The notes under the pieces: generated by a model
Seen by the model: the letters and a program-made list of their open reading frames with translations, nothing else
Database searches by the model: none
What the model was told of the DNA's origin: nothing
Position numbers and translations under genes: made by a program
DNA from: Rhytidiadelphus loreus
Taxonomy: Eukaryota > Streptophyta > Bryopsida > Hypnales > Hylocomiaceae
NCBI GenBank assembly: GCA_947034895.1
Contig: OX344762.1
Coordinates: 51,625,087-51,689,086 of the forward strand
Direction: 5' to 3'
Length of the DNA: 64,000 nt
Part shown: positions 16,889 to 64,000 of the stretch, in pieces
Position numbering within the stretch: the first letter of the stretch is position 1
How the letters are laid out: every line of letters starts with the position of its first letter

Positions 16889-16979
16889 CGCCCAAGTCGC
16901 AGACTAGGATTGTAGCATGCAACGCAACAGTATACTCTAATGCTGGGTACTGTATTAATAGATGTTTAAAGAGTTTGCT

Positions 16980-17633: not shown

Positions 17634-18209
17634 CTAGGGTGAACGGACCTCCTTGCTCATCCCTAGTTTTACCTCTTGAAAAAAAAACATGACCTTTTTA
17701 TTTGCCACACATGATAAATTTTGAAAATTTTGAATTCATATTTGCAATCAAAAGCCCCTATTTATGGTCCAAAATGACCCTAAACTACCAGGTGATGGTA
17801 GTGAGGTACCCAAATCGAATGGCATGGTTGCAGGTTCGATATTTGGTGGCAACAAGTTATTTACCTAGCGTGAAATCAACCTCTCCTCTTGGCGGAAAAT
17901 CCTTGGAATGTGTTTCCTTAACATGCTTGTTTAAAAAATAAAAAATAAAAAATAAAAACCTAATTAGCCAGAAGGAGACAATGTAGAAAAAATAGATTAA
18001 TCAAACATAGAACAAGGGGTCTTTTTTTATTAACCCTGGGAAAAAAAAGTCGGGGACAACGAGAGGACAAGCAAGGGGTTTCCCCTGCAGTAATTTGGGG
18101 CCTCTGATTGCAAATATGAATTCAGAATTTCAAAAAAAAATTAAGCCTTGCAAATAAAAAATTCCAGGGTTTGCTCTGGAGGGGCAATGAGGGGGTCAGT
18201 TCACCCTGG
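17634..18209 (+). mobile_element. MITE, CAGGGTGAATTGACC family, copy 2, interrupted by a SINE
   Basis: The left end (CTAGGGTGAACGGACC, 17634) and right end (GGGGTCAGTTCACCCTGG, ending 18209) match the termini of the copy at 16668. Homology runs 17634-17775 and again 18090-18209. Between them lies extra DNA including a SINE-like unit. Confidence 0.75.
17788..17958 (+). mobile_element. tRNA-derived SINE-like insertion with A-rich tail
   Basis: An A-box-like TGGTAGTGAGG (17796-17806) and a B-box-like GGTTCGATATT (17833-17843) are spaced as in a polymerase III promoter. The unit ends in an A-rich tail of AAAAAAT repeats (17931-17958). It interrupts the surrounding MITE, which makes it the younger insertion. 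Ends and target duplication are approximate. Confidence 0.6.
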
Positions 18210-26622: not shown

Positions 26623-26692
26623 TAAATGTATATGATTTAAACTTGAACAATAATTATTTATTTCCGTTTCTCAATTTTGATGTCATTTGTTG

Positions 26693-27056
26693 TTTCAACT
26701 CAGTCAACTTTGGAGGTTGTTTTCTCATAGTATAGTACCTTTTTTCAAAAAACATCAAACTAATAAAAATTGGAAATTCAAGTTAAATTTCATCTTCAAC
26801 AATATGTTTGTGATTTTGAGTCTCCAATTGAAAATAAGGGGCAAAATTCAGAGAGAGTGTTTACAAATGTCAAAAGAAATTTCATTCCAAACCCTCTTTG
26901 AATTCTGTTCATAACTTTTAATTGGAGACATGAAATCATAAACGGATTCTTGGAGGTTAAATTTTACTTGATTTCAAAACTTTTATTTGATTGAATTTTT
27001 TTGAAAAAAGGTACTATACTATTAAAAAATAGCCTTCAAAGTCAGCTGAGTTGAAA
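26693..27056. mobile_element. foldback/MITE with ~155-bp inverted arms
   Basis: The left arm starts TTTCAACTCAGTCAACTTTG. The right arm ends with the complement, CAAAGTCAGCTGAGTTGAAA. Pairing continues inward through AGTATAGTACCTTTTTT and GTCTCCAATT. Arms are roughly 75-80% complementary. There is no ORF. Confidence 0.8.
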
Positions 27057-27350
27057 AAAAGACTGAATTGTGAATTACTAAGTTAATAGAAAATATTTCA
27101 ATTGCACATAGAATGTCAACTTGGTGGTTTAAACATTTCCCACATAAAATTTTAGTGATAATAACTTCAATTCAATTTAAGACATTATGAATATTTGGCA
27201 AACAATTTACTAGAAGGTGGTTTGGACACAATTCGTATTCAAGTTTTTTGTAATGTAGAAGATACAATTTGAATATTTGAATACAATCTAAATTAGAATT
27301 TGAAAATTCTTCATCTAGAATTTAAATATTTAAGAACTTAAAATTTGAAT

Positions 27351-35316: not shown

Positions 35317-35482
35317 GTCAAAGTTGACAGATTTTGTTAAACATCCAATATAGCAATCGTTGTTTTTATGTCAACAATGATGTCCGCAGTAACATCTTCA
35401 TGTTATAGTACGTGGATGTCATTGTTGACATAAGAACAAGGGTTGTTACATGGGATGTCTAACAAAATCCGTCAACTTTGAC
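35317..35482. mobile_element. 166-bp foldback hairpin (MITE or hairpin-RNA-like)
   Basis: The left arm begins GTCAAAGTTGACAGATTTTG and the right arm ends with CAAAATCCGTCAACTTTGAC. The arms (~78 bp each) pair at ~80%, also through ATGTCAACAATGA, and meet at a small AACAT-CTTC-ATGTT loop. The shape also fits a plant-type hairpin RNA precursor. No second copy is present in the window. Confidence 0.8.
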
Positions 35483-38233: not shown

Positions 38234-39254
38234 ATGGCTGCCGCTACCGCCTGCGCGTCCACGGCCTTGGCTGGGCAGTCGCTGCTCAAGCCTGTCAATG
38301 AGCTCTCCAAGAAGGTGGGCGCAGGCAAGGCCCGCATCACTATGGCCAAGGTCTCCGGCAGCCCCTGGTGAGTGCATGCTGGAGCTAAGATTGGGTCCAC
38401 TGTATTCATCTGGAGCTTGTAATTGTAATTGGGGGATGTTTTGCTGGAATTTGGTTCAAGTTTATTCGATCGTATGCTGCTTGTAATTACTTGTTTCGTG
38501 TTGGGGGATGTTGCTGGAATTGGGCAATCATGGACACTGATGGTTGGCTAGATATTGTTGCTGCGCGCGGAAGAAGTGCTGATGAGAGGTCATAACTTGC
38601 AGGTACGGACCCAACCGCAACAAATGGTTGGGCCCCTTCTCCGAGAACACTCCTTCTTACCTGACCGGAGAGTACCCCGGAGACTATGGCTGGGATACCG
38701 CCGGACTTTCTTCCGACCCCGAGACGTTCGCCCGAAACAGGGAGTTGGAGGTCATCCACGCGCGCTGGGCCATGTTGGGAGCTTTGGGGATCGTGACTCC
38801 CGAGCTGTTGGCCAAGAACGGCGTCAAGTTCGGCGAAGCTGTTTGGTTCAAGGCCGGTTCCCAGATCTTCGCGAGCGGGGGCTTGGACTACTTGGGCAAC
38901 CCCAGCCTGGTGCACGCTCAGAGCATTTTGGCCATCTGGGCTTCTCAGGTGATCTTGATGGGCGCCGTTGAGGGCTACCGAGTAGCCGGAGGCCCTTTGG
39001 GTGATGTGACTGACCCCATCTACCCTGGCGGCCAATTCGACCCCTTGGGGTTGGCTGACGACCCCGACACGTTCGCTGAGTTGAAGGTGAAGGAGATCAA
39101 GAACGGTCGTTTGGCCATGTTTTCGGTGTTCGGCTTCTTCGTCCAGGCGATCGTGACTGGCAAGGGTCCCATCGAGAACCTGGTCGACCACTTGGCCGAC
39201 CCCGTGGCCAACAACGCATGGGCGTACGCCACCAACTTCACCCCCGGCAGCTAG
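38234..39254 (+). CDS. Lhcb: LHCII chlorophyll a/b-binding protein, copy 3
   Basis: This is a photosystem II antenna apoprotein of the thylakoid. Exon 1 is 38234-38367, the intron is 38368-38602 (GT-AG, 235 bp) and exon 2 is 38603-39254, giving 261 aa. The phase and position of the intron are identical to copies 1 and 2. All pigment ligands of the family are present (E94, H97, R99, Q160, E168, E209, N212, R214, Q226, H241) and the trimerisation motif reads WYGPNR. It is closest overall to copy 2, yet residues 178-189 ([12 protein letters not shown]) are those of copy 1, identical over ~33 bp of DNA. This suggests gene conversion. The 3' flank has AAATAAAATCATG about 140 bp past the stop. Confidence 0.97.
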
Positions 39255-45235: not shown

Positions 45236-45415
45236 TGAGGGGCGACCGCGGGTAGGGGCGACCACGGGTAGGGGCGACCGCGGGTAGGGGGGCGACCACG
45301 GGTAGGGCGACCTCGGGTCCAAAATCCTGGGCGACTGTGGGTCCGAATCCAGGGCGACCGCGGGTCCGAAGTCCAGGGCGACTGCGGGTCCGAAATCCAG
45401 GGCGACCGCGGGTCC
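45236..45415 (+). repeat. GCGAC-NN-CGGGT minisatellite, array 1
   Basis: About ten units of GGGCGACCGCGGGT and variants, first at ~17-bp spacing and then at ~27 bp with TCCAAATCCA-like spacers. It lies between the 283-aa ORF and the transposase gene. Confidence 0.9.
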
Positions 45416-45939: not shown

Positions 45940-48900
45940 TTACATTGTGAAGGTAGAATCGCTTTCCGCTTCATCTGCATTGGGGTCGGTGTCTTCATGT
46001 GGCCCACTACTGTCACTAGCTCCTGAGACCTCGTTTTCATCATCCTCTCTGCTTGTAGGTTGAAGGATCACCTCACGTTCCACCTCAGAGTTCAAATTTC
46101 GCACTTGCGTTTCTAAACCACCAACAACTTCGGCTAGCACTAATCGCTTTGTCGGCCTCGATGCATCAGTGGTTCCATTGATAATAGGGCCTGTCGGTCG
46201 CTCAAGCACCTGCTGCCCAACATGTTGACGCTCTGCTCTCGTTGCTGCGCTTGATGGCCAAGGATTACGAGTGGAATTTCGTTCTCCAATGACAAATGGA
46301 TGGATCGCATGGTTTTGACGCTTGGGGTTCCGTGTCAGTCTGTCTTGCGTCTTGCGGGTTCGTTTATTTCCTGATTTGGAGTGTTCACGCGATCGCCTGG
46401 ATGATTCTCCAGGGCCTGACATCAACGAGGCCGGAGTAGGTTGTGGAGCTGAGCCATGCACTCCTTCATCAACGATTTGTCGTAGATCATTATGTGTCGG
46501 CGACCTTGTTAGAGGAGTTGGTACTATCCTCGATGTTGTGGCAATGTCTACACTTGCAGGGCGATTGGACCCACGGGTACGGGTCTCGTTGAATACCACT
46601 TGCAATGGCGCATCTGAATCGTACACCCTAGTTTCTGTTGCAGTGTTGTTGGTCGGTGCTAAACTTGGACGAACTGCAGGTACCTCTTCAATATGCGACA
46701 CCTCTTCTTGCCTTTCACCCTGTACATTAACTCGTACACCACTTCGGAGGTTCATTGGCATACTAGGCGGCAGACATGTGGCAATTGGAGACCTGACAAG
46801 CTCCACTTCATCTGCCACTGGAATATCTGCACCGTCATTGTTGTCATCAGGAGTTCTTTCCCTCGTTGGGTCTGCATTGATTACCGGAAATGCATCCCAA
46901 GCCGACACATGAGGGGCTTCGTCTCTGCGGTGGTGCGACGCCTCTGGAGAGCTCAATCCATCATCATCACCCACGAAAGTGTTGTGGTATCGTCCTCGTG
47001 GAGGACTACCTACACGGGGCACCATACCAGCCCACCTATTTCCACGGAGGCGTTCTTCTACTACCACACGTCTCTGTTCTTCTCTCAAATCTCTAAACCT
47101 AACTTCATCTTCGTCCCCCGAAGAATATGGTTCCTCATTCTCTTCATCTGTATCTCCATCTACAAGGTACTTTTCGTAGAATAGTGCTCGATTGTGTCCT
47201 TGTTTTTCACGTTCCAATTTGCTGTTGGTGTAGATATACACCAACATCTCAGCCTTCTTTGTGGCTAGGCGATTACGCACTTTATCGTGTACAAACGAAT
47301 ACATGCTCCAGTTTCTTTCACAAGATGATGCTGAGCATGTCAGAGACAAAACTCTCCTTGCTATTTTTGGAAGAGCGTTCCCACCCACACGATTCCACCA
47401 TTGATGAGGCAACAAGTTACATCGAGTAACATCTGGAGCCTCTTGTAATGGATCAAAGGGACCCGAATTCTCTTCAAATTCCGTCAACTCAGCAATTGCT
47501 TCATCTTCATCCACATTCAATGGTCCGCTCAATTTTCTGATGACTCGATTCAATGCCCGCTTTGCCTCTCCATTGTTATGAAGCTCTTCCACATCTGTCA
47601 AATACGGGTTCAACAATGCCCCTGCATAATGGAGGTCCGTGCGCATCAACTTCCAACGAGCATCAAATTGTTTTAAGAACTGCGTCGCGGTCTGCTCATC
47701 AAGAAAGAATGGAGCCTCCTTTAAAGTGCACACGTGCTGACGAAGGCTACTCATTATTATCCAAGCTTTCGGCATCGCCGGTATTTTGCCATCGAACTGG
47801 CGCAGAGCAAGAATCACTGGAAGAACCATGTGCTGGAAATTACCGCATTCCACCCAAAACACTTCCGAAACTATGTCCTCTCGCGCTTTACGGGCCCGCT
47901 CTCTTGTAATGAGTCCGTTTGTTCTGCTGACCAAACTATTCTCAAATGGCATATACGTCTCGTCCCCCACCACAAATTGAAGCGCTTGTTTGCACTCTAC
48001 CAAACGGTCTATCATGAGAAAATGCACTGCGAAGCGTGTGGCCGCGGGAAGTCTCAATGACTTCTTCGGCGAGTACTTACGGAAGAGACCCAAAGTCAAG
48101 TGGTACTTCTTTATAAACTTCACAATTGCCCTCGCCTTATCCACTAGATCTTTGATCCTTTTTTCCTTTCCCCAGTCTTCCAAAAGTAAGTCCAATATAT
48201 GTGCGGCACATCCTTGCGTATATATGTGGGGATACCTTGCTTGCAACTCGCGCATTGACCCTGTCATTATGGAAGCATTGTCTGTACACAATTGGACAAT
48301 ATTTCCTGGTCCCACCTGCTCTATGTAGGTAGCCATTGTATTCACCGTATACGCCATGTCTTTCCTCTCTCCTGTGGTGTCAACCGATCCCAGGAAGACA
48401 TCACCCGCAGGGCAAACGAGCATCATATTCAACAAGGGACGGTGATTTGTATCTGACCATCCATCTGAACAGATAGTGGCTCCATATTGGGTAATAGAAC
48501 TCTTTGTTCGACTACTGACCATTTTCGTAACAGCCTCCTTCTTCACATCAAGTAGTTTAGTGTGCACCGCATTGTATGATGGCGGGGAATATGGAAATCC
48601 ACATGTCGAAGTTGCTTTCACAACATTCACAAAGGCTAGGTGCCGCACCACATTGAATGCAATGTTAGCCTCATAAAAGAAAGAAGCCCATAGTCTGTCC
48701 AAGTTCTGTCTTTCATTGACCCGGAATGATTCATCCATGCTTTGTTGACGAGAAATCGAGGTTGAGCGCATCCTTCTCACCGTCACAGGAGTAGAATTCG
48801 TTGAATCTGGATTACGAGGCGGTGCATTAGGTGCTTCTGTCCTGTCGCTTGGGTCCACAGACCCTTCCACTTATGCATCCACAGTATACCCTGCAACGGA

Positions 48901-49524: not shown

Positions 49525-49865
49525 CGAGGTCGCCCTACCCGACCGCTGGTCCAATTCCAGGCATATGGAGGCGCGCGCCTTTGCAGTAGTCGACTTCGGG
49601 TCACATGGTGCGAACGCGGGTTCCGGCAGGCGACTTCGGGTCCGAAATAGGGTGAACGCGGGTCCAGGGAGGGCGACTTCAGGTCCCGGATGGGCGACTT
49701 CGGGTCTCAGACGGGCGACTTCGGGTCCCACATGGGCGACTTCGGGTCCCGGATGGGCGACTTCGGGTCTCAGATGGGCGACTTCGGGTCCCACATGGGC
49801 GACTTCGGGTTTCATGGGAGACTTCGAGTGCCATGGGCGACCTCGGGGGAAAGAAGGGCGACTTC
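49525..49865 (+). repeat. GCGAC-NN-CGGGT minisatellite, array 2
   Basis: At least ten units of GGGCGACTTCGGGT separated by CTCAGA, CCCACAT or CCCGGAT. The separator cycle (CGGAT, CTCAGA, CCACAT) gives a higher-order period of ~51-54 bp. All ORFs across it on both strands are repeat products. It lies upstream of the transposase start. Confidence 0.92.
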
Positions 49866-51047: not shown

Positions 51048-52625
51048 TCATGCAACATCCATATTGGCCTCCTCTTCCCTTTTCTTCTTCATGACTTCAA
51101 ACTCATGGGCCGCAATTCTATAAGCACTCTTCAAAAGGGGTAGGTCATGGTTCCACATCTTGTTTTTGATCCAAAAATTCTTGAACGTTCTCGCATAACC
51201 AATGTGTGCAGTCCGGAAATCTATGTGCTTCTGAAACTGGTGTTCAAGCTTCTTCAAAGAAACTAACTTCTGCTTCAAGGAAGCTACCTCTGATGTCAGC
51301 ACACAATGCTCTTCATCTACTAATAATGCATCCAAAGCCATTGGAAGGTCAATGGGGCCTACAACCGTGGTTTCTTTTAGGTCATTCAACCTTGACTGCG
51401 CCTCTTCCACAGCTTTCCTTTCAGTATTCAATCGGTTTTCTTCTGCCAAACACTCTTCCATTATTTTGGCCATTCGTTTATCCAAGAACGGGGTGGAATT
51501 TGAGGTAGAGCCTCCATCTTTGCCTTTATTGAATTTCAAATAAAATTGCTCCAGCTCGTCCATTTCCTTTTGTTGAACTGACAAACGAACTTTCCCGCTT
51601 ATGATTAGTGCTTCAAGGGTGTGCTCATCGTTGTCCTGAATGTCACCACCAGTGCGTTCACGCTGCCTTTCACATTCCATTTCTATTTCTACCAGTCTAC
51701 GAAGAATAGCCTTCAACTGGGCTTTATAAGCTTCTTTTCCTTGCCTCCTCGTGTCTTCAAGATATAATACTTCCCTTCCTGCTTCTTGAAGAGGTAGTTC
51801 TTCACATGAATCAAAAATCACCAATGCTTGTTCAGCATCTCGTTGCAACCCGATCTCGCCCTTCTCCTTGTCTTCCTCCATTTCTCGCATGCGTGCATAT
51901 ACATGTTGAAGAACTTCGTCTTCCTCAGGATGACGGAAGTGCATTGGCTCCAACGATCTAAGAGGCGCGACATGCAATACTACTGCCCCTTCTGAGTCTC
52001 CAACAAAAGGTACCACCGCTGCCATATTTTCTTCAAGTATTGGATCTTCATTTGGGGGCATAGGGTCTGCAATGTCTTCTTCATCCGAGTCGGTGGAGGT
52101 GGACGACTGGCCCCAATCGTAGTCTTCATCCGACACTTCTTCTTTGAAATGTTTTTTGGGCCCTAATCCATCCCTCGGATTATTTGATGGATCCGCCCTT
52201 GGAATGTCTTTGGTAGTGGGAACTATGCTATTGGGGGTTTTCTTAATGGTCCTCCAATCCACAGTTCGTCGCAATTGTAGCTCTGCATAGACCATTTGGC
52301 ATATACCCAATGAAACTTGACTCCCCTTCACTGTTGGTTTTTGATATAATGTCCGGTAAACTTCGATGCACCATTGTACAAATGCATCATCTCTGCAGTA
52401 GTGAAGATTAGCATTGTTTTGGCTGATATGGACATCGTGTCGGAAATAAGGGAATAGCTTATCGATATGGCACCACCCTACGTAGGCCTTGCAAGTGTTG
52501 AACGTCCAATCCGATTGCACGTTTTGCCAATTTGGAAATGCCCTTGTTGTTGGGTCCAAAAGGATGGCTACATTCCGACTATGGCGCTCTTCTTTCTTCT
52601 TTGCCTTCTTAAAGGGGGGGACCAT
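51048..52625 (-). CDS. acidic coiled-coil protein of unknown function, 525 aa
   Basis: I recognise no family. The ORF is intronless and opens MVPPFKKAKKKEERHS, a basic and possibly nuclear-targeting start. Residues ~15-140 look like a compact domain rich in W, C and H (for example AYVGWCHIDKLFPYF, HYCRDDAFVQWCIEVY). Residues ~165-240 are acidic and low in complexity. Residues ~240-350 and ~390-480 are heptad-like Glu/Lys/Leu stretches, probably coiled coils. The C-terminus (FWIKNKMWNHDLPLLKSAYR) is again aromatic. It lies between two GCGAC minisatellite arrays and inside a possible 8.4-kb TTAACCCC-ended unit (49884-58257). A transposon-encoded accessory protein is one reading and a captured host gene another. 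The long uninterrupted frame argues that it is, or recently was, translated. Confidence 0.7.
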   Translation of the reverse strand: MVPPFKKAKKKEERHSRNVAILLDPTTRAFPNWQNVQSDWTFNTCKAYVGWCHIDKLFPYFRHDVHISQNNANLHYCRDDAFVQWCIEVYRTLYQKPTVKGSQVSLGICQMVYAELQLRRTVDWRTIKKTPNSIVPTTKDIPRADPSNNPRDGLGPKKHFKEEVSDEDYDWGQSSTSTDSDEEDIADPMPPNEDPILEENMAAVVPFVGDSEGAVVLHVAPLRSLEPMHFRHPEEDEVLQHVYARMREMEEDKEKGEIGLQRDAEQALVIFDSCEELPLQEAGREVLYLEDTRRQGKEAYKAQLKAILRRLVEIEMECERQRERTGGDIQDNDEHTLEALIISGKVRLSVQQKEMDELEQFYLKFNKGKDGGSTSNSTPFLDKRMAKIMEECLAEENRLNTERKAVEEAQSRLNDLKETTVVGPIDLPMALDALLVDEEHCVLTSEVASLKQKLVSLKKLEHQFQKHIDFRTAHIGYARTFKNFWIKNKMWNHDLPLLKSAYRIAAHEFEVMKKKREEEANMDVA

Positions 52626-52912: not shown

Positions 52913-52929
52913 GACTCAGGAAATGCAGA

Positions 52930-53146
52930 GGGAGAATTGACCCCCTCATTGCCCCCGTCAACTTAGATTTTTAAAAAAAGCCCCCTATATTCTGCCAACT
53001 TTTGGGTAATTCTTGCATCTCCTAGAAGTAATTTGGGGCCTCTGATTGCAAATATGATTTCAGAATTCCCCCAAAAATTAAGCAGTGCAAATAATAAATT
53101 CTAGGGCAAGCCCTGGATGGGCAATGAGGGAGTCAATTCACCCTGG
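52930..53146 (-). mobile_element. MITE, CAGGGTGAATTGACC family, copy 3
   Basis: A 217-bp element homologous to 16668-16888 in inverse internal orientation. The ends are GAATTGACCCCCTCATTGCC and TGAGGGAGTCAATTCACCCT. Confidence 0.85.
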
Positions 53147-53552
53147 CCCTCACAAATGGCTCATCTCAAGACTGATCTCCCTTTTTCATGTATTTACTTC
53201 AATGAAAATATTTTTAGATCATTTTTCAGACAAAGAAAAATAAAAGAAGAATCTAACACAAGTGATTTCATTTTTTTTAAGTATTTTTTAATTAATTGTA
53301 AATTTCCAAAGGACTTGTGTCATAGGTCCCTACTTATGCCCCTAGGTCTCCCGTAAAACGTTCACTTGCAACTTCTAAAGAAAAATGGGGAAGTAAAGAG
53401 AATGAATTGGCTTTTACAATTGATAATTTTTTTTTCTCGAATCATTTAATGATTATGGAGGTCAATTTATGAACTACAGTTTGTCCATTTCAAAGCCACT
53501 TATAGAGTCCATTTTGAATGCCCACTCCATTTTAGAGCCTTCTACCTTATAT
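53147..53552 (+). mobile_element. TAAGGTAGGAGGCT-ended MITE, copy X1
   Basis: It matches 61684-62097 in the same orientation over ~400 bp (shared CTCATTTTTCAGACAAAG and GGGTCATAGGTCCCTA-type sequence). The right end is AGAGCCTTCTACCTTA. The left end is missing where it meets the preceding MITE. Confidence 0.65.
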
Positions 53553-54207
53553 TTACTTTCACATCCTCACAAATGGAGAAAGGAAGTACAATTTATGTAT
53601 CAATGAATAGGTGGTAGTAAAATCGTGGGCCACCGCAATTAAAAATATTCCCAACATGTAATGAGTTTAATAGCTTTTTCAAGTGATATTAAGTTTTGGA
53701 AGAGAACATTTTAGTGTGCCAATATAATTTGTAGTTCTTCATTTCAACTCCAATCCCAAATTTATTTTTATAAGCAATACACTCAACCATGAAAAAGTAA
53801 ATTTGGTAGGTTATCATCTCACAACTCTTATCCAATATTGCACCTTCATGAAACGTGCATACTAATACACAAGCTAATTAAACATTCCTATGGTTAGGTT
53901 CTTGTTTCATAAAACTTGCTTCAATGGAAATAACTATAAGTCCATGCTCTTTTCATAAAGGAAAAATACAGTTGGAAAGGCATAGGCACTTAGGGGGTCA
54001 TTAGTAATGCATTCTAATTGTTAAGCTAAACTTATCTTTTGACTCTAAATAGATTATGCAAACACCCCTCTTCTAAAATCAAATTTCATTCGCAAGTACA
54101 TCTTCGTCATTGTCCATAATGACGAACAATTCTAATTAAATAATGATTTAGCACAAGTGAATTCTAAAATACTGTATATCATTACAAATTAGTTACTTTA
54201 AAGTTTC

Positions 54208-54465
54208 AAAAATTCCTGTAAAGACCTCGGTCTAGGCCAGGTGTCGTGCTTCGAAGGTTTGACCAAAGACCTCCTCGACCTCCGCAGTGAGATGTTTTCT
54301 ATCTCACTGCGGAGGTCGAAGAGGTCCTTGACCGAACCCATAAGCCCAAACCAGAACCTCGTACATCATGTACACCGGGTTGGGAATCGAACCGTAGACC
54401 TCCCAGACTCCACTTGAATTCGAAGAAGTCGACCCTTGTCTGAGAATCCCTTCCACTACTTCACC
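54208..54465 (-). ncRNA. putative Pol III hairpin RNA unit, copy H1
   Basis: An A-box-like TGAAGTAGTGG (54463-54453) and a perfect B box GGTTCGATTCC (54393-54383) are followed by a long hairpin (54338-54256, arms ~38 bp, inner stem almost perfect) and a T5 run (54212-54208). A GTACATCATGTAC palindrome sits between B box and hairpin. The inner stem reads CGACCTCCGCAGTGAGAT. No expression evidence is available from sequence. Confidence 0.6.
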
Positions 54466-54600
54466 TGCTCGTTGGTCACATCGGGAATCACCTTCGATGC
54501 ACCACTCCTTGTCCATCCCATCTTTATTCATTTTTTTCTTTGATTCTACGGGGCTTCAAAATACCATTAGCCGCCCAACAAAAATTAGTCTCCCCGTTTT

Positions 54601-54930
54601 GGACCCGAAGTCGCCCCACCCGAAGTCGCCTTACCCGAGGTCGCCCAAGTCCCAGAAAAGAGGGAATTTCAAATGCGTGAGTTTTTCCCTCCTCTCTGGA
54701 CCCGCGGTCGCCCCATCCGCGGTCGCCCCACCCGAAGTCGCCCCACCCGAGGTCGCCCCAGCACCGCAGAAAGAAGTCCCCAATTTCCCCCTTCTCTGGA
54801 CCCGTAGTCGCCCTACCCGCGGTCGCCCTACACGAAGTCGCCCCACTCGAGGTCGCCCCAGCACTGCTGAAGGAAGTCCCCAATTTCCCCCTTCTCTGGA
54901 CCCGCGGTCGCCCCACCCGCGGTCGCCCCT
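54601..54930 (-). repeat. GCGAC-NN-CGGGT minisatellite, array in M1
   Basis: About 13 units, on the plus strand ACCCGAAGTCGCCC and variants. The longer unit ending CTTCTCTGGA recurs every 100 bp (54695, 54795, 54895). Confidence 0.93.
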
Positions 54931-55746
54931 ACATCAGTATTTGAAAGAGTCACTTAGAGAACATTGCTGTCATGGTAGGTGAGATCATAGAATATTTTCT
55001 ACATAGCTTACAATTATATCACATGATCATTTTATTAAATGGTCCCTAACAAGGTTTCAATATCCTCAAGCCCTACAATCATGAACCGAAAACCCTACAA
55101 AGCCCTCGCAAACTAGAACCTATACCCAAACCTAAACCCTTGAATGCCCAACCCATTTTAGGATGTTTTATGAATGTGCTTTAACATCAACAAGAAGCCA
55201 ACATTTTGAATTATAGAATCAATTTCTTTGTACTTCTTCATTTTTCCTCCAATGCCAAAAAACTTTATTTGTGCAAATTATCAAATTGTTGTGGAGGGGG
55301 ATAATACACTTGAAGTAAAAAATGTACATTTCTCTTATTCTCTTGTTATAATCTTACAACAGTTACGCAATGTTGCACTCAAAATTAATGTGCATACTAA
55401 CAAGCAAGTTCTTTATACATTCATACGGTTAGATTCAAAAATAAATAGGAAACTTGCTTCAATGGGAATTACTATAAGTCCATGCTTTTTTTTAATAGGA
55501 CAAATACAAGAGGGAAAGGCTTAGGCACGTAGGGCCTAATTAGTAATGCACTCTAATAGTTAAGTTAAATTTATCTTTTGACTCTAAATGGATTAGGCAA
55601 ACACCCCTCTTGTAAAATCAAATTTCATTCGCAAGTATTTATTCGTCATTGTCCATAATGACGAACAATTCTAATTAAAGAAAGATTTAGCACAATTGAA
55701 TTCTAAAATACTCTATATCATTACAAATTAGTTGCTTTAAAGTTTC

Positions 55747-56003
55747 AAAAAATCCCGTGAAGACCTCGGTATACGCCACATGACATGCTTCGAAGGTTTG
55801 ACCAGGAGCCTCTTCGAACTCCACTATGAGCTGTTTCTTATCTCATAGCGGAGTTCGAAGAGGTCCCTGACCGAACTAAGAAGCCCAAACCAGAACCTCG
55901 TACATCATGTACACCGGGTTGGGAATCGAACCGTAGACCTCCCAGACTCCACTTGAATTCGAAGAAGTCGACCCTTGTGTGAGAATCCCTTCCACTACTT
56001 CAC
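55747..56003 (-). ncRNA. putative Pol III hairpin RNA unit, copy H2
   Basis: A-box-like TGAAGTAGTGG (56002-55992), B box GGTTCGATTCC (55932-55922), long hairpin 55877-55795 and T6 run 55752-55747. The inner stem (CGAACTCCGCTATGAGAT) differs from H1 at several positions, and most changes are matched in both arms. Confidence 0.6.
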
Positions 56004-56140
56004 CTTCCCGTTGGTCACACCAGGAATCACCTTTGATGCACCACTTCTTGTCCATCCCATTTTTATTCTTTTTTTTTCTTTGATTGTACGGGTCTTCAAA
56101 ACAACATGAGCCGCCCAACACAAATTAATCTCCCAGTTTT

Positions 56141-56271
56141 GGACCCAAAGTCGCCCCACGGTCGCCCCACCCGAAGTCGCCCCACCCGAGGTCGCCCCAG
56201 CACCGCTGAAGGAAGTCCCCAATTTCCCCCTTCTCTGGACCCACGGTCGCCCCACCTGCGGTCGCCCCTAC
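56141..56271 (-). repeat. GCGAC-NN-CGGGT minisatellite, array in M2
   Basis: Six units of the same repeat with the variable dinucleotide. Confidence 0.9.
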
Positions 56272-56837
56272 ATCAGTATTTGAAAGAGTTACTTATAGAA
56301 GACTGCTGTCATGGTAGGTGAGATCATAGAATATTTTCTAGATAGCTTACAATTATATCACATGATCATTTTATTAAATGGTCCCTAACAAGGCTTCAAT
56401 ACCCTCAAGCCCTACAATCATGAACTCCAAACCCTACAAAGCCCTCGCAAACTAGAACCATAAACGCAAACCTAAACCCTTGAATGCCCAACGCATTTTA
56501 GGATGTTTTATGAATTTGCTTTAACTTCAACAAGAAATCAACATTTTGAATTATAGAATCAATTTCTTTGTACTTCTTCATTTTTCCTCCAATCCCCACA
56601 AAATTTATTTGTGCAAATTATCAAAATGTTGTGGAGAGGGGTAATACACTTTAAGTTAAACTTATCTTTTGACTGTAAATGGATTAGGCAAACACTGCTC
56701 TTGTAAAATCAAATTTCATTCGCAAGTATTTATTCATCATTGTCCATAATGACGAACAAATCTAATTAAATAATGATTTAGCACAATTGAATTCTAAAAT
56801 ACTCTATATCATTACAAATTAGTTACTTTAAAGTTTC

Positions 56838-57095
56838 AAAAAATCCCGTGAAGACCTCGGTCTAGGCCACGTGACGTGCCTCCATGATTGAGCCAAGGAC
56901 ACTTTCGAGTATAGAACGGAAATGTTTGTCATCTCCGTTCTCTATTCGAAAGTGTCCTTGACCGAACCCGTAAGACCCAACTATAACCTCCTTTATCATG
57001 TACACCGGGTTGGGAATCGAACCATAGACCTCCCAGACTCCACTTGAATTCGAAGAAGTCGACCCTTGTCTGAGAATCCCTTCCACTACTTCACC
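56838..57095 (-). ncRNA. putative Pol III hairpin RNA unit, copy H3
   Basis: A-box-like TGAAGTAGTGG (57093-57083), B box GGTTCGATTCC (57023-57013), long hairpin 56968-56886 and T6 run 56843-56838. The inner stem (CTTTCGAATAGAGAACGGAG on one arm) is unlike H1 and H2, yet pairs along nearly its whole length. Confidence 0.6.
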
Positions 57096-57230
57096 TTCTC
57101 GTTGGTCACATCGGGAATCACCTTTGATGCACCACTCCTTGTCCATCCCATTTTTATTCTTTTTTTTTCTTTGATTGTACGGGTCTTCAAAACACCATGA
57201 GCCGCCCAACACAAATTAATCTCCTAGTTT

Positions 57231-57716
57231 TGGACCCGAAGTCGCCCCACCCAAAGTCGCCCAAGTCCCAGAAAAGAGGGAATTTCAAATGCGTGAGTTT
57301 TTCCGTCCTCTCTGGACCCGCGGTCGCCCCACCCGAGGTCGCCCCAGCACCGCAGAAAGAAGTCCCCAATTTCCCCCTTCTTTGGACCCGTAGTCGCCCT
57401 ACCCGCAGTCGCCCCACCCGAAGTCGCCCCACCCGAGGTCACCCCAGCACCGCAGAAAGAAGTCCCCAATTTCCCCCTTCTTTGGACCCGTAGTCGCCCT
57501 ACCCGCAGTCGCCCCACCCGAAGTCGCCCCACCCGAGGTCGCCCCAGCACCGCAGAAAGAAGTCCCCAATTTCCCCCTTCTTTGGACCCGTAGTCGCCCT
57601 ACCCGCGGTCGCCCCACACGAAGTCGCCCCACCCGAGGTCGCCCCAGCACCGCAGAAAGAAGTCCCCAATCTCCCCCTTCTCTGGACCCGCGGTCGCCCC
57701 ACCCGCGGTCGCCCCT
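57231..57716 (-). repeat. GCGAC-NN-CGGGT minisatellite with 100-bp higher-order repeat, array in M3
   Basis: About 18 units. The landmark TTTGGACCCG (or TCTGGACCCG) recurs at 57381, 57481, 57581 and 57681, exactly 100 bp apart. Each 100-bp block carries four units, with plus-strand dinucleotides in the order TA, CA or CG, AA, AG. Confidence 0.95.
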
Positions 57717-58257
57717 ACATCAGTATTTGAAAGAGTCACTTATAGAAGACTGCTGTCATGGTAGGTGAGATCATAGAATATTTTCTAGATAGCTTACAAT
57801 TATATCACATGATCATTTTATTAAATGGTCCCTAACAAGGCTTCAATATTTTGAAGCCCTACAATCATGAACCGAAAACCCGACAAAGCCCTCGCAAAGT
57901 AGAACCCTAGAATCCAAACCGTAACCCTCAAATGCCCAATGCATTTTAGGATGTTTTATGAATTTGCTTTAAATTGTACAAGAAGTCAACATTATATGTG
58001 CCTACTAACAAGCAAGTTGTTTAAACATTCATACGGTTAGATTAAAAAATAAATAGGAAACTTGCTTCAATCCCAATTACTGTAAGTCCATGCTTTTTTT
58101 TCATAGGAAAAATACAAGAGGGAAAGGCTTAGGCACATAGGGCTTAATAATTAATGCACTCTTATTGTAATGCACTTCAAGATTTTTTCTCAAAGTAGCC
58201 AAAGTGACGGTTTTTAGTGGTTCTGAACCTATAATGGCCTTCGAACTTCAGGGGTTA

Positions 58258-58919
58258 AATTCACATCTAAAGAAACTTTTATTAGTTTTCGATTATGGCT
58301 CAAACATATAGATCTTGCAAGAATATTTTGACCTTGTATTCAAAAGTAATGAACCTGGAAGAAGCCTTCAAGGTACTCTTTGTAAAAATGTTTTGTGAAA
58401 CATTAAAAGGCAAATTCAAAATTTAATTTTTAATTTGTAGACCAAAATGGTTTTGTTGAGAGAAAACGTAATTTCTACATATAAAGGTGAAATTAATTTC
58501 ACCTAAAAATGGTGTATTGCATTTAACCCTTATGTTCCCATTTTTTTTGGCCCATTCAAACCAATTGAGAAATGTCGTTTTTATTGCCAAAAACCTATTA
58601 AGATTACAAGAAAGTCATCCTTTTTTGCCGGATAAACCAATACAAGTGCCGATTGTCAATGCTTTTTAGAAGGAAAATGGGCTCCATTATTCCAAGGCTA
58701 TATATCTTACTGTAGGATATCTTACTGGAACATTGAGCCTATTTAATTCATTCATTGCAGCAAAATACAAACATTGATATGAGAGATTCAATACAACATA
58801 CCATGAAGAATAGATCCACAATATTGCCAATTTGGGGAAAATGGCACTTCATATTAAAATTTGATTACATGTACTAGAAGTACTACTCCAAAATGATACT
58901 ATGGTATTCTTCTATCACA
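58258..58919. other. intergenic, 3' side of kinase gene
   Basis: Nothing recognised. A TTTAACCCTTATG sequence at 58523 weakly resembles the TTAACCCC end. Confidence 0.4.
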
Positions 58920-60560
58920 CTACAACACGGAGTCCCGAAAAACTAATTCTGGAGGCTTCATATTCCAGGGTGGAAGCATGAGTGAAGCTACCACCTCAAA
59001 GCATGTGAGTCTCGTCTGTAAGTCAAGATCCATAAGCGCACGTAACTTCATTGTAAAGAACTTTCCCGACTCAGGGTTTTTGAATAGTTCCCTGTCATAT
59101 TCACCCATATAACCAATTTTCATGTTCCAAATCAATTTACCAATAGAAAACGAATCAGACTTAACCGTATACTTGTGCCTGGCTTGCATCTTGTCAAGGC
59201 TCGTTTCTGAACCCTTTGGCCCAAACACATAGAACAACTCTGGAGCCACCCACCATCTGCCTTTCAACATGTCATCCCTCTCTTTCGTGGTTTTGTATCC
59301 AAAATGTGAGGGAGCTCCCTCTTGTATACGACTGGCAATTCCCCAATCGCAAATCCCAATGTTTATAACATCATCCGAGTACGGTGGATAATGGATTAAT
59401 ATGTTGTTGGGAGACAAATCGTTGTGTAGAACACCTTCATTGTGTACAAGACTTGTCACATAAACAAGGGCCCATGCTAACTTCGCCTTGTGCCTTCGAA
59501 AGAGGCTAATTTGCTTCACCTGCTCTTGTTGAAGTTCTTTCACCAACTTGATTTCATGCCAATCGGCATGTGGCACGACCTTCTCATTCAAGCGAACAAG
59601 TTTGTTCAAATTACCACCATTCCACCACAACGTGTAGGCCTCCATTGTGTTGGCGTGGATAGCCACAAATTTAACAATGGCTGGGTGATTTAAAGGACAC
59701 ACCAAGGCCTCAATGGATCGTTCATATCTCGCATCACGTGTGTTTGTTTGCTTTGACACCTTCCCCGCAAAATGTACATGCTTGGGTATTGTAGACATGC
59801 CATCAATGTATACCTTACGCACCTTTCCATACCCCCCTTGTTGGTCATATCCACTAAGCGGAACCACTTTTGCACTAGAATTGATCCACATGAGAGACGA
59901 TCCACTGTTTTGAGAAAGAGCAGCCGTCAATGCGTCCAACTGCCACCCCATCGCCCTAGATACAGTCTTCAATAGTCTAGACGCCGCTTTCTGCCACCAT
60001 GCCATTTTTGCGTGGAATTCGATGGTCTCCTTATTTTCACACCCAGGGACTATAGGTCGGTGCTCTACAATGATTTTTTTGGTATTGAAAATGATTTCCA
60101 TGAGCACGTTCTCCATCCACTTCTCATAGTTGCCAAAGTACATTTCATCCACGTCAGCATATTTCGGGGATTCTTTGCACTTTTTTAGAATAAAAGTGCT
60201 CAAATCTCTCTTCAACTTAATGATGCCTGATTCTTTATGCCTCAAGTATGTAGACTCTAGAAATTCCACAGTGCGTCCCTCGTACCATTCGAAACACACT
60301 TGCTGTGCAAATATTGAATAATCACGTGGAGGATAAGTTGGGTCCTTATCATGTGCCGTCTTTGACTTCTTCGACTTTGATGATGACTCTCCACCCGTTG
60401 ACTCGTATGAGTCAATAGTCACTTGGAACTCCGCGGGATTGTCAAGGTCGGTGCCCCTTACATATTTCCTTGTAGCATTCTCCCATTCCCGGGGGTCATC
60501 GTGGTTAATATGCCATAGAGACGGACGCATTGTACTACTCCCTTCTCCTGGATTAGACAT
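58920..60560 (-). CDS. protein kinase domain protein, 546 aa, probably transposon-associated
   Basis: An intronless ORF with a complete kinase fold in its second half. The Gly-rich loop is at 240-250 (QQGGYGKVRKV), the ATP-binding Lys at K267 (FAGKVSK), the helix-C Glu at E280 or E284, the catalytic loop H379-N-D381-LSPNN386, the metal-binding D405 in DWG instead of DFG, and the APE motif at 439-441 (VAPEL). All catalytic residues are present, so activity is plausible; substrate and pathway are unknown. HNDLSPNN in place of HRDLKPxN and DWG make it an atypical Ser/Thr-like kinase. Residues 1-220 match nothing I know and include a Ser/Lys-rich linker (55-75). It lies between inverted copies of the repeat module (M3 and M4) and is surrounded only by repeats, so it may be cargo of a mobile element. 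Confidence 0.82.
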   Translation of the reverse strand: MSNPGEGSSTMRPSLWHINHDDPREWENATRKYVRGTDLDNPAEFQVTIDSYESTGGESSSKSKKSKTAHDKDPTYPPRDYSIFAQQVCFEWYEGRTVEFLESTYLRHKESGIIKLKRDLSTFILKKCKESPKYADVDEMYFGNYEKWMENVLMEIIFNTKKIIVEHRPIVPGCENKETIEFHAKMAWWQKAASRLLKTVSRAMGWQLDALTAALSQNSGSSLMWINSSAKVVPLSGYDQQGGYGKVRKVYIDGMSTIPKHVHFAGKVSKQTNTRDARYERSIEALVCPLNHPAIVKFVAIHANTMEAYTLWWNGGNLNKLVRLNEKVVPHADWHEIKLVKELQQEQVKQISLFRRHKAKLAWALVYVTSLVHNEGVLHNDLSPNNILIHYPPYSDDVINIGICDWGIASRIQEGAPSHFGYKTTKERDDMLKGRWWVAPELFYVFGPKGSETSLDKMQARHKYTVKSDSFSIGKLIWNMKIGYMGEYDRELFKNPESGKFFTMKLRALMDLDLQTRLTCFEVVASLMLPPWNMKPPELVFRDSVL

Positions 60561-60719
60561 AGCTCTTCCTTCACAAAGTTACCTACAATCGATGAATAAA
60601 TAGAGTCGTGGAAAAAAAGGGCAACAAGTCCACCCCCCAATCACCGCCTTGGCCCACAAGCTCGCATTCAGCCACTACAAGGTGGATGAAAGCCGTAGCA
60701 CAGGACCAAGACTGGCGAA
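60561..60719. promoter_or_regulatory. kinase 5' flank
   Basis: A short region between the kinase start and a minisatellite array, so any promoter must be here or within the array. No clear TATA box was found. Confidence 0.3.
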
Positions 60720-60734
60720 TGCGGGTGGGGCAAC

Positions 60735-61090
60735 CGCTTAAGTACCCGCGGTCGCCATAGGGGCGCGTGCGGGTGACAGGGCGCGTGCGGGTAAGGGCGA
60801 CCGCGAGTACCAAAGCGGTCCTGAAACCTGAACCCGAGGTCGCCCCCTACACCCGAGGTCGCCCTGGAACTTGGGACTTCCAGCTTTTTTGGTGCTGGGG
60901 CGACCTCGACTGGGGCGACTTCGGGTGGGCGACTTCGGGTGGGGCGACTGCGGGTCCAGAAGTCGTGGAAAATTCACGCATTTGTAATCCTCTTTGGGGG
61001 ATTGGGCGACTTCGGGTGGGGCGACTTCGGGTGGGGCTATGGAGCCGTGGGGCGACTGGGAGACTATTTTGTGTTGGGCGACTTCGGGTA
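60735..61090 (+). repeat. GCGAC-NN-CGGGT minisatellite, array in M4
   Basis: Degenerate units in both orientations up to ~60870 and then plus-orientation units (GGGGCGACTTCGGGTGGG) to 61090. Orientation switches inside the array, unlike in M1-M3. Confidence 0.9.
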
Positions 61091-61186
61091 TTTTGAAGCC
61101 AATAGAATCAAAGAAAAAAAGGAATAAAAATGGGATGGACAAGGAGTGGTGCATCAAAGGTGATTCCCGATGTGACCAACAGGAAG

Positions 61187-61443
61187 GTGAAATAGTGGAA
61201 GGGATTCTCACACAAGGGTCAACTTCTTCGAATTCAAGTGGAGTCTGGGAGGTCTGCGGTTCGATTCCCAACTCTGTGTGCATGATGTAGGAGGTTATAG
61301 TTGGGTCTTACGGGTTCGGTCAAGGGGCACTTTGAATTGCGCACTGAGATGAAAAACATTTCGGTGCGGAATTCAAAGTGGTCCTTGGCCCAATCCTCGA
61401 AGCACATCGCGTGGCCTATACCGAGGTCTTCACGGGATTTTTT
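61187..61443 (+). ncRNA. putative Pol III hairpin RNA unit, copy H4
   Basis: A-box-like TGAAATAGTGG (61188-61198), B box GGTTCGATTCC (61258-61268), long hairpin 61313-61396 and T6 run 61438-61443. The inner stem (ACTTTGAATTCCGCACCGAA on one arm) is different again. Confidence 0.6.
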
Positions 61444-61683
61444 GAAACTTTAAAGTATCTAATTCGTAATGATATAGAGTATTTTAGAATTCAATTGTGC
61501 TAAATCTTTATTTAATTAGAATTGTTCGTCATTAGGGACAATGACGAATAAATACTTGTGAATGAAATTTGATTTTACAATACGGGGTGTTTGCTTAATC
61601 TATGTAGGGTCAAAAGATAAGTTTAACTTAACAATTAGAGTGCATTACTAATGAACCCCTAAGAGCCTATGCCTTTCCAAGTG

Positions 61684-62097
61684 TAAGGTAGGAGGCTCAG
61701 AAATGGTGCACCTAAGGGCTGGTCTGCCTTTTTCGTGTATTTCTTTGGACGGGAATATTTTTAGCTCATTTTTCAGACAAAGAGAAATTGATGAGGAATC
61801 TAACCCAAGTGGTTTCATATTTTTCCAAAGATTTTTGAATTACTTATGAATTTTCAAACGAGTTGGGTCATAGGTCCCTATTTGTGACCCTAGATCTTTC
61901 ATGAATGGTTCACTTGCAATTCTAAATAAAAATGGAGAAAACACAGAGAATGATTGGCTCTTCCAATTAATAATGTTTTCTTCCTTGGTTCATTCAATGA
62001 ATGTATTGGTCAATTTCAGAACTTTAGATGCACCATTCCACAACCATTTATAGGAGCCATTCTTAATGCCCGCACTCTTTCACAGCCTCCTACCTTA
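61684..62097 (+). mobile_element. TAAGGTAGGAGGCT-ended MITE, copy X4
   Basis: 414 bp with short terminal inverted repeats (TAAGGTAGGAGGCT at left, AGCCTCCTACCTTA at right). It splits module M4, whose sequence resumes after it (CATGGACTTGTAGTTATTCC), and is absent at that point from M2 and M3. A related copy is at 53147-53552. Confidence 0.75.
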
Positions 62098-62405
62098 GTT
62101 TTTCTGTTATGAAAAGAGCATGGACTTGTAGTTATTCCCATTGAAGCAAGTTTCCTATTTATTTTTGAATCTAACCGTATGAATGTATAAAGAACTTGCT
62201 TGTTAGTATGCACATTAATTTTGAGTGCAACATTGCGTAACTGTTGTAAGATTATAACAAGAGAAATGTACATTCTTCACTTCGAGTGTATTACCCCTCT
62301 CCACAACAATTTTAAAGTTTGCAGAAAAAAAGTTTCTTGGGATTGGAGGAAAAATGAAGAAGTATACAGAAATTGATTCTATAATTCAAGATGTTGGCTT
62401 CTTGT

Positions 62406-63059
62406 TCAAGTTAACCCCTAAGTGACCCCGAGGACAGGATGGGTCCTCAACCAGTTTCCTAAGTTAAACAAAACCTTACCAAATTACTATATGTAGTAAT
62501 TCATATTTTTGGAAAATTCTTTTTGAAGTTTAGATTTAGCTTCAAAAATCTGATTTTGAAAATGATTGATTATGATTTTTCTATTTAAGATTTTGTGCAT
62601 GGGTGTACACTTGCAATCTTGACTTTTTGTAGTGTTGAGGGCTCTTAGGAATGAGCCTCAAACACACTAAATCTTTGAGAAAATATCACATTACAAATGA
62701 AATTTAAAAAAATGATAAAGTAGATTTTGAGAAGTTATAAATTGATTGGGTTTATGCACCTTAGGCCCTTTAAGCTCATATTTTTTAGGTGACGAACTTT
62801 TTAGATTTCACATTTGAAAAGAGGATTGAAATACTTCAAATCACTTTCACAGATTTAACACCCTCATGATAAAACATTATAATCTTTCAATAAATTAGAG
62901 GTATTGTTGTGTTTTCTTTTCTAATGTGATCTCTAATACGTCTAGTTTGAATTTACACGGTTACAATTCAAAAAGAATGGATAGAACGTATCAAAATGTT
63001 GGATTTTTGTTCAATTTAGAGCAAATTCTAGAAGCTTAGCAAATTCCAGGGTCATTTTG
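62406..63059. other. AT-rich DNA starting with a TTAACCCC-type end
   Basis: TTAACCCCTAAGTGACCCCG at 62411 resembles the left end of the TTAACCCC elements, but the following sequence does not match E1-E3. No gene is supported. Confidence 0.45.
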
Positions 63060-63318
63060 GGGTTCAAGCAAATTCATAAACCATCCTAAAATGCGTTGGG
63101 CATTTGAGGGTTTAGGTTTGCGTTTATGGTTCTAGTTTGCGAGGGCTTTGTAGGGTTTTTGGTTCATCATTGTAGGGCTTGAGGATATTGAAGCCTTGTT
63201 AGGGACCATTTAATAAAATGATCATGTGATATAATTGTAAGCTATCTAGAGATTATTCTATGATCTCACCTACCATGACTGCAGTCTTCTGTAAGTCACT
63301 CTTTCAAATACCAATGTA

Positions 63319-63480
63319 GGGGCGACCTCGGGTGGGGCGACTGCGGGTAGGGCGACTTCGGGTAGGGCGACTGCGGGTCCAGAGAGGAGGGAAGAACTCA
63401 CACATTTTTGCTTCCCTCTTTTCTGGGACTTGGGCGACCGTGGGTAGGGCGACTTCGGGTGGGGCAACTTCGGGTCCAAA
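63319..63480 (+). repeat. GCGAC-NN-CGGGT minisatellite, array in M5
   Basis: Seven units, including GGGGCGACCTCGGGT and GGGCGACTGCGGGT. Confidence 0.92.
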
Positions 63481-63612
63481 CGGGGAGACTATTTCGCGTT
63501 GGGCAGCTGATGGTATTTTGAAGCCCAATAGAATCAAAGAATAAAAAGAATAAAGATGGGATGGACAAGGAGTGGTGCATCAAAGGTGATTCCCGATGTG
63601 ACCAACGGGAAG

Positions 63613-63884
63613 GTGAAGTACTGGAAGGGATTCTCACACAAGGGTCAACTTCTTCGAACTCAAGTGGAGTCTGGGAGGTCTACGGTTCGATTCCCAACTC
63701 CGTGTGCATGATGTAGGAGGTTATGGTTTGGTCTTACGGGTTTGGTCAAGGACCACTTTGAGTTCAGAATGGAAATGAGTCAAATGACAAACATTGTCAT
63801 TTCCGTCCTAAACTCAAAGTGGACCTTGGCCCAATCCTCGAAGCACGTCACGTGGCCTAGACCGAGGTCTTCACGGGATTTTTT
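63613..63884 (+). ncRNA. putative Pol III hairpin RNA unit, copy H5
   Basis: A-box-like TGAAGTACTGG (63614-63624), B box GGTTCGATTCC (63684-63694), long hairpin 63739-63837 and T6 run 63879-63884. The stem is the longest of the five (arms ~42-45 bp), with an inner CTTTGAGTTTAGGACGGAAA on one arm. Confidence 0.6.
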
Positions 63885-64000
63885 GAAACTTTAAAGTAAC
63901 TAATTTGTAATGATATAGAGTATTTTAGAATTCAATTGTGGTAAATCATTATTTAATTAGATTGGTTCGTCATTATGGAGAATGACGAATAAATACTTGT

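Follow-up and report, generated by a model that had tools for sequence, protein, structure and literature searches.

Hairpin-bearing, SINE-like repeats from a moss with covarying stem arms: possible arm-to-arm copying within recombining longer repeats

Results

Five hairpin-bearing units within longer repeats

The locus comprises five related, non-independent units, three on the minus strand (m1-m3) and two on the plus strand (p4 and p5), all of which lie within one window, namely the 64,000-nt stretch of DNA that was analyzed. All five were found at the coordinates proposed in a first-pass annotation of this DNA, and their measured lengths (258, 257, 258, 257, and 272 nt) agree with its estimates of 256-258 nt for four units and ~272 nt for the fifth, p5, whose hairpin carries 15 additional nucleotides toward its apex. 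Similarly, each hairpin begins about 43-45 nt past the B box (~45 nt had been given), and the T run follows about 41-42 nt beyond the hairpin (~43 nt had been given). The units, their hairpins, and their surroundings are as follows.

54208..54465, minus strand: unit m1, 258 nt, with A box, B box, hairpin, and T5
54254..54340, minus strand: hairpin of m1
55747..56003, minus strand: unit m2, 257 nt
55793..55879, minus strand: hairpin of m2
56838..57095, minus strand: unit m3, 258 nt, mosaic
56884..56970, minus strand: hairpin of m3
61187..61443, plus strand: unit p4, 257 nt
61311..61397, plus strand: hairpin of p4
63613..63884, plus strand: unit p5, 272 nt, A box with one mismatch
63737..63838, plus strand: hairpin of p5
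53967..58168, minus strand: tandem array of a longer repeat containing m1-m3, start-to-start distances 1539 and 1091 nt
54603..54929, minus strand: GGCGAC(C/T)NCGGGT array, upstream of m1 in the unit's orientation
58920..60560, minus strand: protein-kinase-like ORF of 546 aa, with the inverted arrays on either side
60866..64000, plus strand: longer repeats in the opposite orientation, containing p4 and p5 at a spacing of 2426-2441 nt, truncated where the window ends

In correction of the first-pass annotation, the ~257-nt unit is not a free-standing element but sits within longer tandem and inverted repeats around the kinase-like ORF. The conserved flanks extend well past the unit on both sides in all five copies, and we therefore rejected a series of independent 257-nt insertions; because the units belong to a longer repeat, they do not represent five separate insertion events. 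Motifs of the GGCGAC(C/T)NCGGGT type are found upstream of m2, m3, p4, and p5 as well. The kinase-like ORF had no relative in IMG/VR, and a search of the same resource with an exact 35-base pattern returned no matches. Among the LHCII relatives listed (120 of 976), most are 83-93% identical and some less so, which points to a green plant or streptophyte alga as the source.

Pol III-type signals in the units

The B box, GGTTCGATTCC, which had been described as perfect, is exact in all five units; when up to one mismatch is allowed, the window holds six matches (five of them exact) vs 0.81 expected. Against the A-box consensus used for scoring, TRGYNNARNGG, four units carry a perfect match, and p5 has a single mismatch.

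54383..54393, minus strand: B box of m1, exact match
54448-54458, minus strand: A-box word of m1, matching TRGYNNARNGG
55922..55932, minus strand: B box of m2, exact match
55987-55997, minus strand: A-box word of m2, matching TRGYNNARNGG
57013..57023, minus strand: B box of m3, exact match
57078-57088, minus strand: A-box word of m3, matching TRGYNNARNGG
61193..61203, plus strand: A-box word of p4, matching TRGYNNARNGG
61258..61268, plus strand: B box of p4, exact match
63619-63629, plus strand: A-box word of p5, TRGYNNARNGG with one mismatch
63684..63694, plus strand: B box of p5, exact match

The proposed A-to-B spacing of 59 nt depends on the word chosen as the A box and becomes 65 nt, start to start, with the consensus A box. 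Every unit ends in a T5-T6 run, and none contains a T4 run before this terminator. Judged by these motifs, Pol III signals in the units are plausible, and the unit resembles a SINE-like cassette made up of a probable internal Pol III promoter, a long hairpin, and a T-run.

Plant tRNA-derived SINEs combine an A box, a B box, the absence of an internal T4, a terminal T-run, and a length of a few hundred nucleotides. The units share the boxes, the lack of an internal T4, the T-run at the end, and the size, but differ in having no recognizable tRNA and in occurring, in the window, only inside longer repeats; moreover, a 40-bp hairpin is not a usual SINE component. ARAGORN predicted no tRNA in the window, where a degenerate one could escape its detection, and no tRNA likeness was seen either at the Rfam cut-off in the window or when p4 and p5 were scanned at a lax threshold. 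Target-site duplications were sought as exact 7-12 nt repeats common to both end regions, and none was found in any of the five units; a 6-mer repeat was seen in m2 and in p5, with its downstream copy falling within the unit.

Stable hairpins with covarying arms

The five hairpins are real: their folding energies lie far beyond those of shuffled sequence (z = -7.6 to -11.7; none of 200 shuffles was as good for any of the five). The first-pass annotation had reported paired change in both arms, and this is borne out by the inner stem, where 14 of 29 base pairs are altered on both sides yet remain paired and 92.4% of cells are paired in register, vs 34-46% when the partners are slid. The slid registers yielded only 2-4 pairs changed on both sides, and 14 or more were reached in none of 500 shuffles. 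Further, the arms of one copy mismatch in 20 of 145 cells, as compared with 47.2 expected under shuffling of the right-arm letters across copies (a value as low occurred in 0 of 20000 shuffles), and the true left-right matching of arms ranks best among all 120 possible. The covariation of the arms is thus genuine.

Over the inner 29 positions, the two arms of a copy mismatch at 3-5, whereas left arms of different copies differ from one another at 4-13 and right arms at 6-18. In an arm tree, the clade uniting a copy's own arms appeared in 396 (m1), 384 (m2), 444 (m3), 134 (p4), and 277 (p5) of 500 bootstraps; the arms of p4 fail to group together, and the support for p5 is low.

The loop-proximal part of the stem is concerted between the arms, unlike the stem base, where position 6 is unpaired and position 9 is U-G in all five copies, and where the arms of one copy differ at 3-4 of the 10 base-proximal positions. 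The outer stem had been called nearly constant, which holds for the left arm (0-2 differences between copies over these 10 positions) but not for the right arm (0-4). The five inner-stem words first quoted do not all come from one arm: those of m2 and m3 are left arms, those of p4 and p5 are reverse-complemented right arms, and that of m1 is the same in both.

Stem divergence and mosaic history

The hairpin was correctly recognized as less conserved than its flanks, since pairwise divergence between copies amounts to 21-46% in the hairpin vs 4-12% in the flanks. At least part of this contrast, however, is a recombination mosaic, as indicated by the sites that group m1 with m2. Such two-versus-three sites make up 11 of 21 in columns 222-351 and 0 of 16 elsewhere (p = 0.0006, with zone limits set after the divergence profile was known, one base pair counted twice, and little drawn from the downstream flank, since six of the seven outside sites grouping p4 with p5 are upstream); that is, all 11 sites uniting m1 and m2 are located in or beside the hairpin. 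Moreover, in the comparison of m2 with m3, 9 of the 30 unpaired positions of the shoulder differ vs about 12 of 357 in the far flank, and m3 is itself a mosaic, with an upstream flank like that of m1 and m2 and a hairpin and shoulder closer to those of p4 and p5. These site patterns show that the hairpin and its unpaired shoulder have a genealogy different from that of the upstream flank.

Between m1 and m2, the hairpin differs at 18 of 85 positions and the flanks at 17 of 251 and 17 of 163; this pair diverges by ~2-15% across the non-hairpin part of the shared block and by ~12-28% just past that block, where the alignment is gappy. Because the excess divergence of the hairpin persists within this pair, mosaic history does not account for all of it.

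Discussion

Arm copying within recombining repeats

Our favored reading, to which we give close to an even chance, is that these are SINE-like repeats with hairpins in which one arm is rewritten from the other at replication, within longer repeats that recombine. The palindrome would fold as a hairpin during replication, and the nascent strand would switch template and copy the opposite arm, such that a change in one arm would be either transferred to the other or erased, mostly in the loop-proximal part. Neighboring repeats would recombine, which would homogenize the flanks while old hairpin cassettes were retained and would make the stems appear hypervariable. The longer repeat carrying the cassette has been duplicated, both in tandem and as inverted copies, around the kinase-like ORF. 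A concerted loop-proximal stem with a base that is not concerted is as expected with copying that begins near the loop.

PMC8794818 (Monttinen and Loytynoja 2022) describes template switching as making and keeping RNA hairpins, with compensatory double stem changes arising through arm-to-arm copying in rRNA and microRNA genes, and terms the evidence for such maintenance circumstantial. The units likewise show double changes that preserve pairing, but differ from those cases in forming a repeat family, in having stems that outpace their flanks, and in having flanks with another genealogy.

We simulated per-position copying along a UPGMA tree built from the flanks. With the flank mutation rate, arm copying never reached 14 or more multi-type pairs at any of five copying rates (0 of 120 runs for each) and was therefore rejected as the sole cause. 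Stems evolving ~3-8 times faster than the flanks fitted in a good share of the runs; an older hairpin genealogy would, as we argue outside the simulations, have the same effect. The two options first put forward, RNA selection and arm-to-arm copying, were the right candidates, but neither alone explains a stem that outpaces its flanks.

Alternative explanations

A possible, though somewhat doubtful, alternative is that the unit acts as a hairpin-RNA gene transcribed by Pol III or Pol II and that RNA selection keeps the pairing; compensatory changes would then maintain a Dicer-type substrate while the stem drifts or is pushed to diversify. Strong pairing in all five hairpins, covarying arms, and the B boxes (5/5), A boxes (4/5), and terminal T5-T6 runs without an internal T4 (5/5) are in line with such a gene, as is a conserved lower left arm followed by ~20-25 variable bp, which matches a small-RNA duplex in size. 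Purifying selection on pairing alone, however, cannot speed the stem beyond its flanks, and the excess of G-U over A-C in the inner stem is insignificant (9:6, p = 0.30; 12:7 after hand-collapsing to events, p = 0.18), which lends no support to RNA-level selection and counts in favor of arm copying. Transitions and transversions among the double changes (8:9) occur in a ratio like that of the flanks (32:27; p = 0.78), which gives no sign of G-U intermediates.

Rfam at curated cut-offs returned no match in the whole window. A lax-threshold scan of the two units p4 and p5 related p5 to the plant miRNA precursor family MIR841 (E 3.3e-05, with 33.3 bits against a cut-off of 200) and its opposite strand to MIR1444 (E 0.006, with 26.3 bits against a cut-off of 80), and gave a best E of 1.1 for p4; these likenesses are far under the cut-offs and involve either strand, a result that long hairpins in general may yield. 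Like plant MIR genes and hairpin-RNA loci, the units form a single stable long hairpin with few mismatches, divided into a lower stem and an inner duplex of 20-25 bp. Conservation in MIR families centers on the duplex, whereas here the inner stem is the part that varies most among paralogues; in addition, the units match no Rfam family at cut-off, the MIR841 likeness of p5 being sub-threshold.

When targets of the inner arms were sought in the window outside the units, none of the 10 arms had a 21-nt match at four or fewer mismatches; at five mismatches, three did, vs one of 10 shuffled controls. Together with the insignificant G-U/A-C test, this leaves the suggested "changeable, small-RNA-sized sequence" without direct support. 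The hairpins may nonetheless be a source of small RNAs. It is improbable, in our estimate, that they form a Pol III-driven hairpin-RNA family in which promoter, lower left arm, loop, and terminator make up a fixed frame, whereas the inner duplex of 20-25 bp is changeable, so that its diversification by arm copying and by cassette exchange between tandem repeats would let the array generate new small-RNA guides.

Also unlikely is a functional DNA structure, such as a cruciform serving the larger repeat as a recognition site for a transposase or replication initiator, with selection acting on shape rather than sequence. The shape is indeed retained despite sequence change, strand asymmetry is absent, as a DNA structure predicts, and a hAT-type transposase ORF at 45940-48870 has, on both sides, GGCGAC motif clusters like those upstream of the units. 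Against this, the hairpin block has no additional copy near that ORF or elsewhere in the window, and a simple search around the ORF found no 8-bp duplications with short inverted ends.

Plain old palindromes, descended from differently mutated ancestors with flanks recently homogenized by conversion and with nothing keeping the arms alike, would suit the mosaic genealogy of hairpin and upstream flank and the regionally uneven divergence of m1 and m2, but we regard them as very improbable and rejected them, because they predict arm differences within a copy at least as large as those between copies, contrary to the lower within-copy mismatch, and because simulations with no copying averaged 0.1-2.5 multi-type pairs (at 1-8 times the flank rate) vs the 14 observed.

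Related elements and significance

Fungal mitochondrial double-hairpin elements resemble the units in having stems that vary while remaining complementary; they are organellar, shorter, and not known to carry Pol III signals. Foldback or MITE DNA transposons differ in that the palindrome here is not an element's terminal inverted repeat with target-site duplication; in each of the five copies, the hairpin is bordered on either side by the same conserved DNA.

If arm copying within recombining repeats were true genome-wide, the family would offer a natural experiment in which long stems stay paired despite sequence change. Many young hairpin copies, with their flanks as a clock, would make RNA-level compensation directly testable against replication template switching, and the family would reveal whether palindromes of this kind give rise to new small-RNA genes.

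One short candidate footprint of arm-to-arm copying, which could be due to chance or selection, was noted in p5: its right arm has gained GTCATT, and GTCATTT is, by eye, the exact reverse complement of AAATGAC on the left side of the same hairpin.

Five hairpin units within longer repeats

The first-pass annotation had reported five units carrying Pol III-like signals and long hairpins, and our analysis recovered all of them, three in minus and two in plus orientation, within the following arrangement:

53967-58168, minus-strand units: longer repeat, in tandem, holding m1, m2 and m3 (spacing 1539 and 1091 nt)
54208-54465, minus strand: unit m1
55747-56003, minus strand: unit m2
56838-57095, minus strand: unit m3
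58920-60560: kinase-like ORF (546 aa; Pfam PF00069) between the inverted hairpin arrays
60866-64000, plus-strand units: longer repeat, inverted relative to the 53967-58168 array, holding p4 and p5 (spacing 2426-2441 nt)
61187-61443, plus strand: unit p4
63613-63884, plus strand: unit p5

The DNA common to the copies extends past the unit ends, with GGCGAC motifs upstream of the units in the same orientation as the unit, and no target-site duplication bounding the 257-nt unit was found. A profile search of the window with the shared 500-nt core returned five full matches and no sixth; the remaining 10 profile rows comprised (i) five reverse strands of the hairpins and (ii) five weak matches (E 0.54-6.6). 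A second short palindrome, such as TTCGTCATTATGGACAATGACGAA, follows the T-run at a distance of ∼82 nt, at 54103-54126 and at the equivalent position of each other copy, and shows few between-copy differences. The kinase-like ORF has 74 listed relatives (27-61% identity), the best of which is 61% identical and lies on a short contig.

Each unit contains an exact B box and ends, past the hairpin, in a T5 or T6 run, as annotated, while the A-box-like word upstream of the B box matches TRGYNNARNGG, which we take to be the A-box consensus, exactly in four units and with one mismatch in p5. This consensus has 11 occurrences in the window when both strands are counted, four of them inside units. An A-box word is thus unlikely to fall by chance within 80 nt of a B box, although the five copies count as a single ancestral observation. 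No T4 run occurs between the A box and the terminal T-run in any of the five units. Although ARAGORN found no tRNA genes in the window, and no Rfam family matched it at cut-off, these sequence signals make Pol III transcription of the units plausible.

Paired change in the hairpin arms

Folding energies of the five hairpins range from -51 to -67 kcal/mol, with z-scores between -7.6 and -11.7, and none of 200 shuffles of each folded as well. With the arms aligned without gaps, the inner 29 pairs of the five copies (145 cells) comprise 125 Watson-Crick, 9 G-U, 6 A-C, and 5 other states. Both sides had changed at 14 of the 29 pairs, a count reached in 0 of 500 shuffles, whereas slid registers gave 2-4. 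Mismatch was lowest between the two arms of one copy (3-5 of 29), compared with 4-13 between left arms and 6-18 between right arms of different copies. A tree of the ten arms grouped same-copy arms in 396 (m1), 384 (m2), 444 (m3), 134 (p4), and 277 (p5) of 500 bootstraps, p4 being the exception, its left and right arms not forming a group in the tree. The fold, covariation, and arm-similarity results thus confirm the central observation of the first-pass annotation, namely that the arms vary but stay self-complementary. The concerted change is confined to the loop-proximal stem; at the stem base, 3-4 of 10 positions per copy are mismatched or wobble, two of these in all five copies.

Divergence and mosaic history of the stem

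The flanks had also been described as far more conserved than the stem. The divergence gap itself holds, copies compared pairwise differing by 21-46% across the hairpin and by 4-12% across the flanks, but the hypervariable appearance probably arises in part from recombination between repeats, through which flanks and hairpins would differ in age. Among sites dividing the copies two against three, m1 and m2 were grouped at 11 of 21 within core columns 222-351 (the hairpin plus the 30-nt unpaired shoulder before it) versus 0 of 16 outside (p = 0.0006, with zone limits set after the divergence profile and one base pair counted twice). Outside this zone, p4 and p5 were grouped at 7 of 16 sites, six of them upstream of the hairpin, the downstream flank being nearly uninformative on differing site histories. 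Further, the m2-m3 comparison shows 9 differences over the 30 shoulder positions, where there is no stem, versus ∼12 over 357 far-flank positions (excluding 28 columns just after the hairpin, with 6 differences). It is this shoulder excess, together with the confinement of m1+m2 sites to the hairpin zone, that points to probable recombination. Some stem excess persists within groups, as between m1 and m2 (hairpin, 18/85; flanks, 17/251 and 17/163).

We simulated arm copying over 29 pairs, using a UPGMA tree built from the flank distances (120 runs per setting). At the flank rate, the mean number of multi-type pairs was 0.1 without copying and 2.5-4.5 with copying, and no run out of 120 reached 14 such pairs at any of the five copying rates. 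Success, defined as at least 14 multi-type pairs and no more than 20 mismatched cells, was obtained in ≤1% of runs at a stem rate of 2x the flank rate, in up to 23% at 3x, and in up to 49-99% at 4-8x. An older hairpin genealogy would equal a faster stem rate in effect.

Origin of arm likeness

We favor template switching, which would keep the arms alike during replication, given the concerted loop end and unconcerted base, an apical insertion in p5 that resembles a copy of the opposite side (one case, read by eye), and the lack of an RNA-selection signal. PMC8794818 describes template switching for RNA hairpins. Selection on RNA pairing is a serious rival, under which one-sided states should be richer in G-U than in A-C and transitions should prevail among double changes. 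However, the G-U:A-C ratio was 9:6 (p = 0.30; 12:7 when hand-collapsed to events, p = 0.18), and double changes comprised 8 transitions and 9 transversions (flanks, 32:27; p = 0.78). The substitution classes therefore lend RNA selection no support, a weak result given that all comparisons of the units rest on five related copies. In a lax Rfam scan, p5 scored 33.3 bits (E 3.3e-05) against the precursor of plant MIR841, whose cut-off is 200 bits, and its opposite strand resembled MIR1444 at E 0.006. We read these resemblances as generic long-hairpin likeness, although they are the sole result tilting toward a miRNA-type locus.

Other features of the window

A 1.55-kb stretch (16665-18212) has inverted terminal repeats of ∼131 bp that are 94% alike, and a related end (52929-53151) adjoins the hairpin array. 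The long ORF at 45940-48870 encodes a hAT-type transposase (DUF659 and hAT dimerisation domains) and is flanked by GGCGAC(C/T)NCGGGT clusters (45241-45401 and 49629-49798) like those upstream of the units. A 525-aa ORF (51048-52625) with seven relatives (up to 51% identity) and no Pfam match is perhaps a mobile-element gene. ORFs of the LHCII chlorophyll a/b-binding type lie at 11614-12276 (220 aa; the one covered by our Pfam check), 19425-20087 (220 aa), and 38628-39254 (208 aa). These three ORFs indicate that the source is a green plant or a streptophyte alga. Two further long palindromes, at 26690-27059 and 35317-35482, have arms ∼75% and ∼80% alike, respectively, and are possible controls for independent arm decay.
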